From Candidatus Dormiibacterota bacterium (GTDB taxonomy: Bacteria; Chloroflexota; Dormibacteria; Dormibacterales; Dormibacteraceae): DNA of 5,409 nucleotides. The stretch spans positions 1 through 5,409 of the forward strand of contig PLYD01000069.1 in NCBI GenBank assembly GCA_003151665.1. The letters are read 5' to 3'. The translations under genes were made by a program, and so were the position numbers. Shown piece by piece: positions 1 through 3,342 of this stretch (position 1 is its first letter; the number at the start of each line of letters is the position of its first letter). The notes under the pieces were generated by a model. The model made no database searches. It was not told the origin of the DNA and worked only from the letters and a program-made list of their open reading frames with translations.

Positions 1-1496
1 CCGCGAATGATCACGCGGCGCGTTTCTGCCGGGTCGATGACGTCGTCGATCATCGCCCAGCCCGCTGCGAGATAAGGGTTGATCTGCGACCTGATCGTCT
101 CGATCAGCCGGCCGCGCGTCTCCTCAGGGTTGGCTGAGGCCTCGATCTGCTTGTTGAAGATGATATTGACGGCGCCCTCGGGCCCCATCACCGAGATCTC
201 CGCGAGGGGCCACGCGACGATGAGGTCCGGCTGGTAACCCTTGCCGCACATCACGTAATAACCCGCCCCGTAGGCCTTGCGCATGATCACGGTGACCTTG
301 GGCACCGTGGCCTCCGAGGTTGCGTACAGCATCTTGGCGCCGTGGCGGATGATGCCTTCTTTCTCCACCTGCGAGCCGACCATGAAGCCGGGGACGTCCA
401 TCAGGTAGACGAGCGGGACGTTGAACGCGTCGCACATCCGGATGAAACGGGCGGCTTTGTCCGCGGAGTCGGAGTCGAGGATGCCTCCCTTCTGCATCGG
501 CTGGTTGGCGACCACGCCCACCGCATGCCCGCCGGCCCGCGCGAAGCCGACCACTATGTTCTTCGCCCACGCCGGCTTGATCTCGAACCACGAGTCGCGG
601 TCGAACACCGCATTGATCACGCGCTTGACGTCATAGGCGGCGCGTGGATTCGTGGGCACGATCTTTTCGAGCCCATCGACATCTCGATCGCCACTGTCGT
701 CGGTGGCGCGGAATGGCGGCTCGTCCGTGTTGCTGGACGGCAGGTACGACAGGAATCGCCGCACCATTGCGATGCACTCGCGATCGTCTTCAACCTCGTT
801 GTCGCCCACGCCCGACTCGTAGCAGTGCACCTGCGAGCCGCCCATGTCGTGGTCGGTGACGTCCTCGCCGGTGGCTGCCTTCACGAGGCGCGCCCCTCCC
901 AGCGACATCGATGAGGTTTCCTTGACCATCGGTACGAAGTCCGCGAGGCCTGGGATGTAGGCAGTGCCGGCCGAGCACGGGCCGAGCATCGCCGCGACCT
1001 GGGGGATGACACCCGACATCACCACCTGGTCGTAGAAGAGGTATCCGGTCCCGGCGAACGTGGAGCCTGCGGCCTCCTGGATGCGCGCACCCGCCGAGTC
1101 GAGCAGCCACACGATCGGCCGGCGATATCGAAGCGCAAGCTCGCGGACCCTGGCGGCCTTGAACTGCTCGCCCACCGCGCCCATCGACCCTGCCATGACC
1201 GTGAAGTCGTAGGCGATGACCCACACCTCGCGGCCTTCGACTTCGCCGTGACCTGTGACCACCCCGTCCGCCGGCGTGCCGTCTGTATCCGGTTCGCCGC
1301 CGCGCACCGCCTGCTGCGAGGCGAGAAGGCCGAACTCGACGAAGGTGTCCTGGTCGAAGAGGAGGTCGATCCGCTCGCGCACGGTGAGCTTGCCGCGCTC
1401 GTGCTGTTTGGCGATCTTCTCCTTGCCGCCCATCCCGAGGTTCTGCTGCCGGCGCGACTTGAGCTCCGAGATTCTGGCCGAGTAGTCCTCGCTCAC
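1..1496 (-). CDS. Acyl-CoA carboxylase carboxyltransferase (beta) subunit, 3' end cut by window edge
   Basis: This is the carboxyltransferase subunit of a biotin-dependent acyl-CoA carboxylase (propionyl-/methylmalonyl-CoA type). It moves carboxyl from biotin to the acyl-CoA alpha carbon in the cytoplasm. 498 codons are present; the family is about 510-530 residues, so only a short C-terminal piece is missing. Family marks seen: an N-terminal helix with KEKIAKQHERGKLTVRERI (25-43), YDFTVMAGSMG (96-106), the N-domain oxyanion region DSAGARIQEAAGS (133-145), SGVIPQVAAMLGPCSAGTAY (161-180), and the C-domain DVPGFMVG (367-374), GIIRHGAK (381-388), RKAYGAGYYVM (406-416) and AWPLAEISVMG (428-438). 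The GTG start overlaps the glycosyltransferase stop (GTGA) and has GGAGG 9 nt upstream. An internal ATG at codon 22 would cut conserved N-terminal sequence. The biotin carboxylase/carrier partner is not in the window. Substrate is uncertain: Tyr414 sits where PccB enzymes usually have Asp. Methylmalonyl-/glutaconyl-CoA decarboxylase alpha subunits are related alternatives. Confidence 0.93.
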   Translation of the reverse strand, partial: MSEDYSARISELKSRRQQNLGMGGKEKIAKQHERGKLTVRERIDLLFDQDTFVEFGLLASQQAVRGGEPDTDGTPADGVVTGHGEVEGREVWVIAYDFTVMAGSMGAVGEQFKAARVRELALRYRRPIVWLLDSAGARIQEAAGSTFAGTGYLFYDQVVMSGVIPQVAAMLGPCSAGTAYIPGLADFVPMVKETSSMSLGGARLVKAATGEDVTDHDMGGSQVHCYESGVGDNEVEDDRECIAMVRRFLSYLPSSNTDEPPFRATDDSGDRDVDGLEKIVPTNPRAAYDVKRVINAVFDRDSWFEIKPAWAKNIVVGFARAGGHAVGVVANQPMQKGGILDSDSADKAARFIRMCDAFNVPLVYLMDVPGFMVGSQVEKEGIIRHGAKMLYATSEATVPKVTVIMRKAYGAGYYVMCGKGYQPDLIVAWPLAEISVMGPEGAVNIIFNKQIEASANPEETRGRLIETIRSQINPYLAAGWAMIDDVIDPAETRRVIIR

Positions 1497-2200
1497 GGGC
1501 GTGATCCTCCCACAAGGAGATCCTCACGCTTGCCCCAGCGATCGAGGAACCGGTAGAAGTTGCGGCGCGAAAGCCGGTCGCGCTCAGCGGGGGCAGTCGC
1601 CTCCCACAGGCGATGTTGGTATCTGTCCAGCGGCAGCCCGGGAACGGCGACCGCGCGCCCGCCCTTATCTCGGAGTCGGAAGCTGAAGTCGATGTCGGCG
1701 ATCCGGTAGAAGCGGAACTTCGGATCGAAGCCCTGCACCGCCTGGGCGTCCGCCCGCCGAAAGGCCATGCAGTAGGCCTCGATCGCATCCACGTCAGGGC
1801 CCGGATCCTCCTCGAACTCCTTCAGCGTGCCCTTGCCCCGAATGCCGAACGGGCCGGCGACCACCACCGACGGGTCCGCCAGCGCAGCGATCAACGGTGA
1901 GACGGCGTCGCCGGTGAGCTCGATTCCGGGGTCAAACAGCACGCAGATTTCGCCCGTGGCCGCCTCGATGCCGGCGTTGACGGCCGTGGCATAGCCGAGC
2001 GGAGGATCCAGCCTGATCGAGCGCAGCCGGTATGCGGAGCGGGTGTGCAGCCAGCCGGCCATGCGGGTGTCACCCGAGTTGTCGACCACGATGGCTTCGA
2101 AGTCCGCCTTGCAGTGCGTGAAGACCGACAGCAGCCACCGCTCGATGTCTGGGATCCAACCGTGGGCGACTGTTATCAGCGAGACGGCCCGAGGCGTCAC
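1493..2200 (-). CDS. Family 2 glycosyltransferase (GT-A fold), possibly N-terminally extended
   Basis: Likely an inverting nucleotide-sugar glycosyltransferase; acceptor and sugar cannot be told. From the GTG start it is 235 residues. Seen in order: beta-strand start AVSLITVAHGW (5-15), the nucleotide-binding IVVDNSG (37-43), LGYATAVNAGIEAATGE (68-84), the DxD-position segment LFDPGIEL (88-95), and the acceptor-side block GFDPKFRFY...DIDFSFRLRDKG (157-180), like the GFDE-FF-EDvDlclR block of rhamnosyltransferase-type GT2 proteins. The DxD-type motif is weak (FDPG instead of NPD/DDD). No membrane segment or signal peptide is visible, so it is probably cytoplasmic. The GTG at 2200 is the first ATG/GTG/TTG in this frame after a stop at 2588-2590 and has a weak GGGGG purine run 8 nt upstream. 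The frame stays open upstream and encodes a CysRS-tail-like segment, so the true N-terminus may lie further right. The gene overlaps the next one by 4 nt. Confidence 0.85.
   Translation of the reverse strand: MTPRAVSLITVAHGWIPDIERWLLSVFTHCKADFEAIVVDNSGDTRMAGWLHTRSAYRLRSIRLDPPLGYATAVNAGIEAATGEICVLFDPGIELTGDAVSPLIAALADPSVVVAGPFGIRGKGTLKEFEEDPGPDVDAIEAYCMAFRRADAQAVQGFDPKFRFYRIADIDFSFRLRDKGGRAVAVPGLPLDRYQHRLWEATAPAERDRLSRRNFYRFLDRWGKREDLLVGGSRP
1506..1510 (-). promoter_or_regulatory. Ribosome binding site of the carboxyltransferase gene
   Basis: GGAGG on the minus strand, 9 nt before the GTG at 1496 and lying inside the end of the glycosyltransferase gene. It supports the GTG start, and with the GTGA stop/start overlap it suggests translational coupling. 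Confidence 0.75.
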
Positions 2201-2383
2201 CGGTTCGTCCCCCGGCGCGGGAGCTTTCAGCGCGTGGAGCTCGCTCCCGGTGGCGCTGTCGAGAACGTCCCACCCACCCGCGCGCAGCTGGTCGCGGATC
2301 GCATCGGCCGCCTCGAAGTCGCGATCGCGGCGGCGCTCGACGCGCTCAGCTAGCAGCCTCTCGGCTTGTGAGCGGTCCGCTGC
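2201..2383 (-). other. Coding-like segment resembling the cysteinyl-tRNA synthetase C-terminal tail, in frame with the glycosyltransferase
   Basis: The stretch between the etfA stop and the GTG at 2200 is open in the glycosyltransferase frame for 60 codons (2380 down to 2201). About 49 of the 60 third positions are G or C, as in real genes here. Its translation contains AERLLAERVERRR, RDFEAADAIRDQLRAGGWDV and LDSATGSEL. This matches the pattern of the CysRS C-terminal end, in which a helix rich in Arg/Ala leads into 'DF..AD.IRD.L...G..V.D...G'. It then runs through a Pro/Ala linker (KAPAPGDEP) straight into the glycosyltransferase strand. No ATG, GTG or TTG occurs in frame; CTG at 2356 is the best unusual start but has GAGAGG directly abutting it. 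It may be an N-terminal domain of the glycosyltransferase, a decayed fusion, or the effect of a sequence error. The CysRS likeness is from remembered family sequences; no catalytic synthetase domain is present. Confidence 0.7.
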
Positions 2384-3342
2384 TACCCCTTCTTCGCTTT
2401 GACCGCGGCGGTCAGCGCGGGGACGATCTTCAGCGCGTCGCCAACCACGCCGAGGTCGGCCATCTTCATGATCGGGGCCTCTGCGTCCTTGTTGATGGCG
2501 ATGATGACCTTCGAGGCCTTCATGCCCACCGTGTGTTGCATGGCGCCCGAGATGCCCACCGCGATGTACACGCCCGGCCGCACGGATTTACCCGTCTGGC
2601 CGACCTGCATCGAGTACGGGACCCAGCCCGCATCGACGACCGCGCGGCTTGCGCCAACGGCACCGCCAAGGGCGCCCGCGAGCGCCTCGAGCAGAGCAAA
2701 GTTGTCGGGACCGCCCATGCCGCGGCCGCCGCTGATGACGACCTTGGCGTCCTCGAGCTTGACCTTCTCGGAAGCCTCAACTACGCGCTCGACGATGTGC
2801 GCGCGCTTGGAGTCGGCGCCGATCGCGGCGTCCACCTCCTTGATCTCAGCCGTCCCTCCGCTCTCCGAAGGTTCGAAGGACTTGGGTCTGATGAGGATGA
2901 TCGCGGGCTTCTTGTTCGCCCGCATCGACGCGACCTTTGCGCCGCCAAAGTAGGGCACGCTCGCAACGAAGCCGCCGTCTTTCGCGTCAACGTCGCCGGC
3001 GTTAGAGATGAGGCCGACATCGAGCCGCGCGGCCAGGCGGCCCGCGACGTCGCGGGAATCCGACGTGAAGCCAAACAGGATGAGGTCTGGTGACTGCGCC
3101 TTGTACAGTGCGGCCAGCGCGTCGGTCGCGGGCTCTGCGATGAAATCGTCAAAGGCCTTGTCCTCGTTGACGTAGACGACCTTCGCCCCGTGCTTGCCCA
3201 GAGTCGCTGCTGCTTCCTTCGCGCCCGAGCCGAGCGCGACCGCCTCGACGTCGCCAAGCTCTCGCGCCTTCGCCATCAGCTCCAATGCGGTCGGCTGGAG
3301 CTTGCCCTGGTTCAACTCTGCGTACACCCAGATTTTTGCCAT
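2383..3342 (-). CDS. etfA: Electron transfer flavoprotein alpha subunit
   Basis: EtfA (319 residues, normal length) pairs with EtfB and holds the FAD that accepts electrons from acyl-CoA dehydrogenases, passing them usually to ETF:quinone oxidoreductase. The N-terminal domain starts [10 protein letters not shown]. The C-terminal FAD domain (about 198-319) is intact: SGGRG (204-208), [13 protein letters not shown] (230-242), QVGQTGKSV (246-254), [12 protein letters not shown] (259-270), GMKASK (273-278) and INKDAEAPI (283-291). The Arg, Ser-Arg, Gln-Thr-Gly and His/Asn positions that contact FAD in known ETFs are all present. The ATG directly follows the etfB TAG with no spacer, and AAGG lies 8 nt upstream, inside the end of etfB, so translation is probably coupled. 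No Fe-S domain is fused at the N-terminus. The stop TAG is preceded by a GGGG run, discussed as a possible frameshift site. Confidence 0.97.

Follow-up and report, generated by a model that had tools for sequence, protein, structure and literature searches.

Does the DNA in front of a family 2 glycosyltransferase (GT2) gene belong to that gene, and what would a piece of cysteinyl-tRNA synthetase (CysRS) be doing there? The question is raised by a contig from Candidatus Dormiibacterota bacterium (PLYD01000069.1, assembly GCA_003151665.1), of which 5,409 nucleotides were analysed; this whole stretch is called the window below. A preliminary description, made from the letters alone, had proposed that positions 2201–2383, read on the minus strand, encode a segment like the C-terminal tail of CysRS, joined in frame to the glycosyltransferase. 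We find that the segment is real, is conserved in its family, and is the anticodon-binding tail of CysRS joined to GT2. The occurrence of such fusions in soil Chloroflexota and Dormibacterota suggests that sugar transfer and the tRNA for cysteine are connected in a way not yet described.

Identification of the CysRS tail

The GT2 frame stays open for 129 codons above position 2200, up to a stop codon at 2590–2588 (minus strand). Between 2383 and 2201 it translates without a stop into a charged helix followed by GGWDVLDSATG, and the gene-like third-position GC that had been described was confirmed, in 49 of 61 codons. A protein search gave 1745 homologues; among the best 120, many are about 292 residues long and are 71–77% identical over 98% of the query, including the tail, and many carry the source name "cysteinyl-tRNA synthetase". 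The DNA above 2200 is conserved as protein, so the outcome named beforehand as refuting, a GT2 protein that always starts at 2200 behind non-conserved, stop-containing DNA, did not appear. The tail codons are under purifying selection: the nonsynonymous rate (dN) is below the synonymous rate (dS) in 44 of 45 pairs drawn from ten Dormibacterota sequences, the 45th pair having a dS of 0 over 40 codons. Between the window and locus L004, dN and dS are 0.057 and 1.24 in the tail and 0.20 and 1.26 in the GT domain. The tail-inclusive homologues and the low dN together mean that the segment is no chance resemblance.

Profile searches agreed on the identity of the segment. On its own it matches Pfam PF23493 (CysS_C) marginally, with E 7.6e-5 and 23.2 bits for a cut-off of 23; within the whole 296-residue protein the match scores 19.7 bits, below the cut-off. 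PF23493 is found at E ≤ 1e-3 in 64 of 111 relatives. The single sequence matches solved CysRS structures poorly (3tqo, E 0.02; 1li5, E 0.35), and a 111-row profile finds the same tails with E 1.1e-8 for 3tqo and 2.5e-7 for 1li5 (which has the sequence of 1u0b), together with GT2 structures. AlphaFold2 predicts helices at residues 4–19 and 23–35 and strands at 38–43 and 46–51, that is, helices and a β hairpin. Fold matches to the window model span residues 64–296, and the tail fold was compared via the model of a fusion relative. The tail therefore resembles the PF23493 domain of E. coli CysRS (1u0b) in its sequence profile, in its predicted helix–helix–β–β fold and in four positions that contact G34. 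It differs in having no catalytic domain alongside and in lying N-terminal to GT2: the window protein has no match to PF01406, the CysRS catalytic domain with its CGPT/HIGH-like, zinc and KMSKS-like motifs, which the fusion relatives do have. The CysRS-tail identity and the in-frame join that had been described both stand; profile searches, homologues in one protein and structure prediction had been proposed beforehand as checks.

The window was also compared with locus L001. Over 2201–2383 of the window and 4960–5175 of L001 the tail dS is 0.43, with extra bases in L001, against a dS of 0.07 for the GT domains; this higher divergence of the tail suggests a recombination event close to the gene's 5' end.

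Distribution of fusions and tail-only proteins

Forty-three family members were aligned, including the window: 20 complete CysRS-GT2 fusions and 23 tail-only GT2 proteins. Relatives at E ≤ 1e-15 occur in 37 of the 151 sampled genomes of the phylum. Some open frames are 720–930 amino acids long, and in those that were read through, the tail is preceded by the last residues of a CysRS. The named fusions are ktedonobacterial or plain Chloroflexi; one of them, P0122 from Thermogemmatispora argillosa, has 801 amino acids and is filed as Cysteine--tRNA ligase. Within the order of genome G014, 24 of 47 genomes match a fusion at E ≤ 1e-150, and the matched stretch enters the GT part in 22. Tail-only proteins are also present in Dictyobacter and Limnocylindria, and the two forms occur together in genome G121. 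The CysRS catalytic motifs are intact in 20/20 fusions.

The suggestion that automatic annotation would start at the GTG at 2200 and so hide the tail is plausible. No ATG, GTG or TTG lies in the GT2 frame between the upstream stop and this codon, which is its first standard start in the window, and 47 of the 120 window-like proteins listed lack residue 14, through start-codon prediction or, perhaps in some cases, contig ends. Because of these shortened entries, and because the fusions are filed as cysteine--tRNA ligase, the family is easily missed.

A tree of 94 CysRS-like sequences places the fusion bodies in one clade, with a Shimodaira–Hasegawa-like approximate likelihood-ratio test (SH-aLRT) value of 99. 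This clade is nested within one of 40 sequences, 20 of them standalone CysRS, among which are those of Dormibacterota and of other genomes with tail-only proteins. In the tails themselves, tail-only rows have Ala-Asp at positions 26–27 and Trp or Tyr at 38 (25/25, two genomes being counted twice), and the 24 matched fusion rows are aromatic at 38 except for three from a single clade. In standalone CysRS the tail often has Ser-Asp at 26–27, and at 38 it has Ile or Val, or Phe in 7 of the 20 of one class. From these sequences we read a single fusion lineage, probably with later loss of the synthetase body; on the tail comparison and the GT tree the reverse order is also possible.

Several further features of these proteins were observed. 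The ktedonobacterial fusions end in a conserved, His-rich stretch that looks metal-binding (residues 754–796 of P0122, alignment A3). Up to three CysRS-like genes are found in many of the genomes; some are short and MshC-like (30 rows of the CysRS-like tree), and a divergent long type that departs from the usual motif spelling is found in L050, L051, L059, L064 and L072.

Conservation of the G34-contact residues

In E. coli CysRS the G34 contacts are Arg427, Asp436 and Trp432, with Arg423 acting through water (PMC12684709). The corresponding positions of the window protein (Table 1) are almost invariant. Among the 238 tail-only proteins listed, and where the position is present, Arg14 is found in 191/191, Arg18, an aromatic residue at 23 and Asp27 in 222/222 each, and Asp42 in 237/237; this set consists of the best-scoring matches reached via words shared with the query, and is biased toward conserved members. 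In the 43 aligned rows, Arg14 is present in 41 (the others being a His in a fusion and a gap), Arg18 in 42 (one gap), the aromatic residue in 42 (one Leu in a fusion), and both Asp27 and Asp42 in all 43. Most remaining tail positions vary, many helix positions freely so. With 17 representatives of less than 70% identity, random triples of tail positions match the conservation of 14, 18 and 27 in 0.3% of draws; for quadruples, with position 23 scored by letter and not as aromatic, the figure is 0.8%.

This pattern points to binding of tRNA-Cys through G34, and we think it somewhat probable that in this family the tail has kept its hold on the tRNA-Cys anticodon arm, which would place the GT domain at that tRNA. 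The preliminary description had offered nucleic-acid binding, protein docking or a recruited helical hairpin as roles for the segment; of these, nucleic-acid binding is to be preferred to a generic hairpin, given the retention of the residues reading G34 in tRNA-Cys. The protein has a GT-A glycosyltransferase fold, and its N-terminal 46 residues are the CysRS anticodon-binding tail; in Chloroflexota and Dormibacterota the tail-GT2 unit either forms the C-terminus of a complete CysRS or is standalone. As we picture it, the tail would hold the anticodon arm via the four G34-reading residues, delivering the GT domain to tRNA-Cys, and in the fusions the same polypeptide would also charge that tRNA.

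The glycosyltransferase domain

The GT domain belongs to GT2, with PF00535 above its cut-off and a GT-A fold. It shares fold, profile match and several conserved Asp/His residues with GT2/GT-A enzymes such as GalNAc-T2, 6p61 and chondroitin synthase. Unlike them it has a CysRS tail in front and lacks complete DxD and ED catalytic motifs: the third DxD position is Ser in 25 rows, Gly in 14, Asn in 3 and Ala in 1, and never Asp in the 43, and the ED-motif Glu at 229 is likewise found in 0/43. Asp151, Glu155, Asp230, His255 and Arg258 are each conserved in at least 90% of the 43 rows, the window having Tyr at 255. The mycofactocin glycosyltransferase model MftF (TIGR03965) gives tail-only protein P0004 a score of 52.7, below its cut-off of 280. 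B3GNTL1 is a GT2-type enzyme; neither it nor GTDC1 is among the fold matches listed, which counts neither for nor against a relationship.

Table 1. Features of the tail-GT2 gene and its upstream neighbour in the window
Feature	Position	Strand	Basis or remark
Whole tail-GT2 coding sequence	1493..2380	-	start by homology with MNR... proteins and ACG/ATG loci; ends at stop codon
GCG codon at homologous start position (codon 2)	2378..2380	-	homology
CysRS C-terminal anticodon-binding tail, residues 2-46	2246..2380	-	PF23493; two helices and β hairpin; profile match to solved CysRS
Arg14, equivalent to E. coli CysRS Arg423 (G34 water network)	2342..2344	-	alignment
Arg18, equivalent to Arg427 (H-bond to G34)	2330..2332	-	alignment
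Phe23, equivalent to Trp432 (stacks on G34)	2315..2317	-	alignment
Asp27, equivalent to Asp436 (H-bond to G34)	2303..2305	-	alignment
Asp42, equivalent to Asp451	2258..2260	-	alignment position only
Pro/Ala linker, residues 47-65	2189..2245	-	mean predicted local distance difference test (pLDDT) 66 over residues 51-60
GT-A (GT2 family) domain, residues 66-296	1496..2188	-	
Asp151, first residue of DxD-like motif	1931..1933	-	41/43 rows; D-P-G in window, D-T-S in most fusions
Asp230, candidate GT2 ED-motif Asp	1694..1696	-	41/43 rows; aligned to chondroitin synthase ED, ambiguous against 6p61
etfA	2383..3342	-	PF01012 and PF00766; stop codon 2385-2383 begins 5 nt before GCG codon

The start codon

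Neither the full-length fusions nor a non-standard start codon figured in the preliminary description. Several of the homologous proteins listed begin MNR at the homologous start. In 32 Dormibacterota rows, codon 2 is ACG in 20, GCG in 4 (including the window), TTG and CTG in 2 each, and ATG, CTA, CTT and GTA in one each; one of the CTG rows, L187, has an ATG four codons earlier. No ATG, GTG or TTG occurs within residues -15 to 13 in 25 of 30 loci. Protein conservation rises at residue 2, the entropy being 2.4–3.1 bits at -6 to 1 and 1.5, 1.0 and 1.3 bits at 2–4. Threonine is written as ACG 133 times out of 307 in the same genes and 20 times out of 20 at position 2, the rows there being related. 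As controls, pattern-matched loci gave ATG or GTG starts for etfA (11/11, one genome occurring twice) and GTG or TTG starts for etfB (9/9).

Shine–Dalgarno pairing upstream of codon 2 shows no overall excess over shuffled controls, which counts against simple initiation there. By eye, AGGAG lies 7 nt before the ACG in L184 and L185, both of which also have a TTG at residue 10. A special initiator tRNA was considered and set aside: initiator-like tRNAs, matched in 38 of 42 genomes, have a CAT anticodon loop in nearly all matches, and a CGT variant occurs once in each of three genomes. Frameshifting or readthrough from etfA was rejected because etfA lies in all three frames relative to the GT gene and the distance of its stop from codon 2 ranges between +5 and -204 nt, with the ACG constant. 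There is a precedent for a non-standard start in Streptomyces sigR, which has a conserved GTC start repressed by IF3 (PMC5472188). A conserved non-AUG initiation of the tail-GT2 gene in Dormibacterota is thus possible. For the window itself the GCG is a candidate only, with CTG at 2356–2354, where L001 has TTG, as an alternative.

Genomic neighbourhood

The window is a minus-strand operon of etfB, etfA, the tail-GT2 gene and an acyl-CoA carboxyltransferase-like gene, the last named by its sequence without a profile. In most other Dormibacterota loci examined etfA or etfB lies upstream of tail-GT2, and in most of those of sufficient length the carboxyltransferase-like gene lies downstream. The simple gene caller overlooked the GT gene itself in several Dormibacterota loci.

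In L084 the distance between queA (10557–11657) and a CysRS-GT2 fusion is 223 bp, and in L095 another fusion is divergent from tgt (11126–12442). A protein search for queA and tgt found no match in any other of the 45 loci scanned, 16 of which are fusion loci with context, nor in 12 further fusion loci. A link to a queuosine or tRNA-modification operon was consequently rejected as steady evidence, queA or tgt being present at 2 of 28 fusion loci in total.

In genome G120 a tail-GT2 gene has as its immediate, convergent neighbour a standalone CysRS from the wider clade around the fusions (L103, 7923–9476 and 9499–10473). A rhomboid protease gene is found near tail-GT2 in nine loci (L098, L099, L100, L101, L102, L104, L105, L106 and L107).

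Alternative explanations

Several observations weigh against a tail that reads tRNA-Cys on behalf of an active glycosyltransferase. Leu10, Ala26 and Gly37 are as invariant as the G34 positions and have no known base contact, so invariance alone does not mark a tail position as touching a base; His stands at 14 in one fusion and Leu at 23 in one. Because CysRS itself conserves the tail residues too, some of the signal reflects ancestry. The GT domain may be inactive or unusual, given the DxD Asp and ED Glu missing from every row, and there is no steady tRNA-modification context, with queA or tgt beside two fusions and none of the 12 further ones. In the unrooted GT tree, fusion and tail-only forms are separated by one change (support 63/84), which does not fix the older form. 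Transfer of a sugar by the GT domain, with tRNA-Cys or Cys-tRNA as acceptor, is therefore speculative. The boldest proposal is a tRNA-Cys-directed GT-A glycosyltransferase, guided to the GCA anticodon by a captured CysRS domain and, in many lineages, still part of the synthetase chain, which would then both charge the tRNA and transfer the sugar; it would amount to bacterial glycosylation of the anticodon loop or of Cys-tRNA, with the level in Dormibacterota held low by the conserved ACG start. Taken as a whole we regard this as tentative and rather unlikely.

The tail could instead have become a structural or docking cap that no longer binds tRNA, on a GT2 whose acceptor would be an ordinary glycan or lipid. 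The Trp or Tyr at 38, which the tail-only rows share and the standalone C1/C2 CysRS tails shown do not have (Ile/Val, some Phe), could pack on the GT domain, and contexts vary between clades with no steady tRNA-modification gene; a cap, however, does not need Arg14, Arg18, the aromatic 23 and Asp27 to be fixed jointly while many helix positions vary, and we consider it a possible but minority explanation. It is distinctly unlikely that the GT is a catalytically dead, sugar-nucleotide-sensing or regulatory CysRS domain, with the tail-only copies as detached regulators competing for tRNA-Cys: the incomplete motifs, the further departures of tail-only P0242 (Dictyobacter) and P0254 (Ktedonobacteraceae) and the two copies in G121 fit this, yet the five well-conserved GT residues are more than a dead domain would lead one to expect, although the window itself has Tyr at 255. 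A cysteinyl-sugar thiol compound, for which the fusion would act as MshC does in making mycothiol and the GT would provide the glycoside, would agree with the 30 short MshC-like or CysRS-like proteins in these genomes and with MshC, as described in a review, being a CysRS-like protein that joins Cys to an amino sugar (PMC9437257). This is very improbable, as the short proteins have no anticodon tail and the fusion does; the fusion also groups with CysRS and not with them, and it scores 209 (P0122) for a cut-off of 485 with the MshC model TIGR03447, with no match listed for tail-only P0004. Finally, the lack of a standard start before the segment in the window would suit an artefact, a non-coding leader whose likeness to a CysRS tail arose through misassembly or by coincidence; protein-level conservation across many of the homologues listed and across many assemblies, together with purifying selection, refutes this and leaves it virtually no probability.

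Comparison with known systems

Appended domains on synthetases are well known. In the open-licence literature we found no account of a glycosyltransferase fused to CysRS, and none of an anticodon-reading domain that has parted from its synthetase and is carried by a different enzyme with the base-reading residues intact; as far as we searched, the CysRS-GT2 family is undescribed. If the tail binds tRNA-Cys, this would point to sugar transfer that depends on tRNA, or to a tRNA modification not known before, with named relatives in Thermogemmatispora and Dictyobacter.

In animals the tRNA glycosyltransferases QTGAL (B3GNTL1) and QTMAN (GTDC1) place a sugar on queuosine, a nucleoside of the anticodon loop (PMC11705514, PMC12518689). 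They are a precedent for a sugar on an anticodon nucleoside. Their sugars are carried by the queuosine of tRNA-Tyr and tRNA-Asp, whereas tRNA-Cys is not among the queuosine tRNAs given in the abstract, namely those for His, Asn, Tyr and Asp (PMC12518689).

Closer in origin are the paralogues of aminoacyl-tRNA synthetases such as MshC, CysRS* and GluQ-RS, which like tail-GT2 have a synthetase-derived part outside plain aminoacylation; the review passages that name MshC and CysRS* contain no word beginning with glycosyl (PMC9437257). According to the same passages CysRS* has no anticodon-binding domain (PMC9437257), and the short MshC-like proteins of the genomes studied here end before it. The tail-only proteins are the reverse of CysRS* and the short MshC-like proteins: they retain the anticodon domain and have lost the catalytic part.
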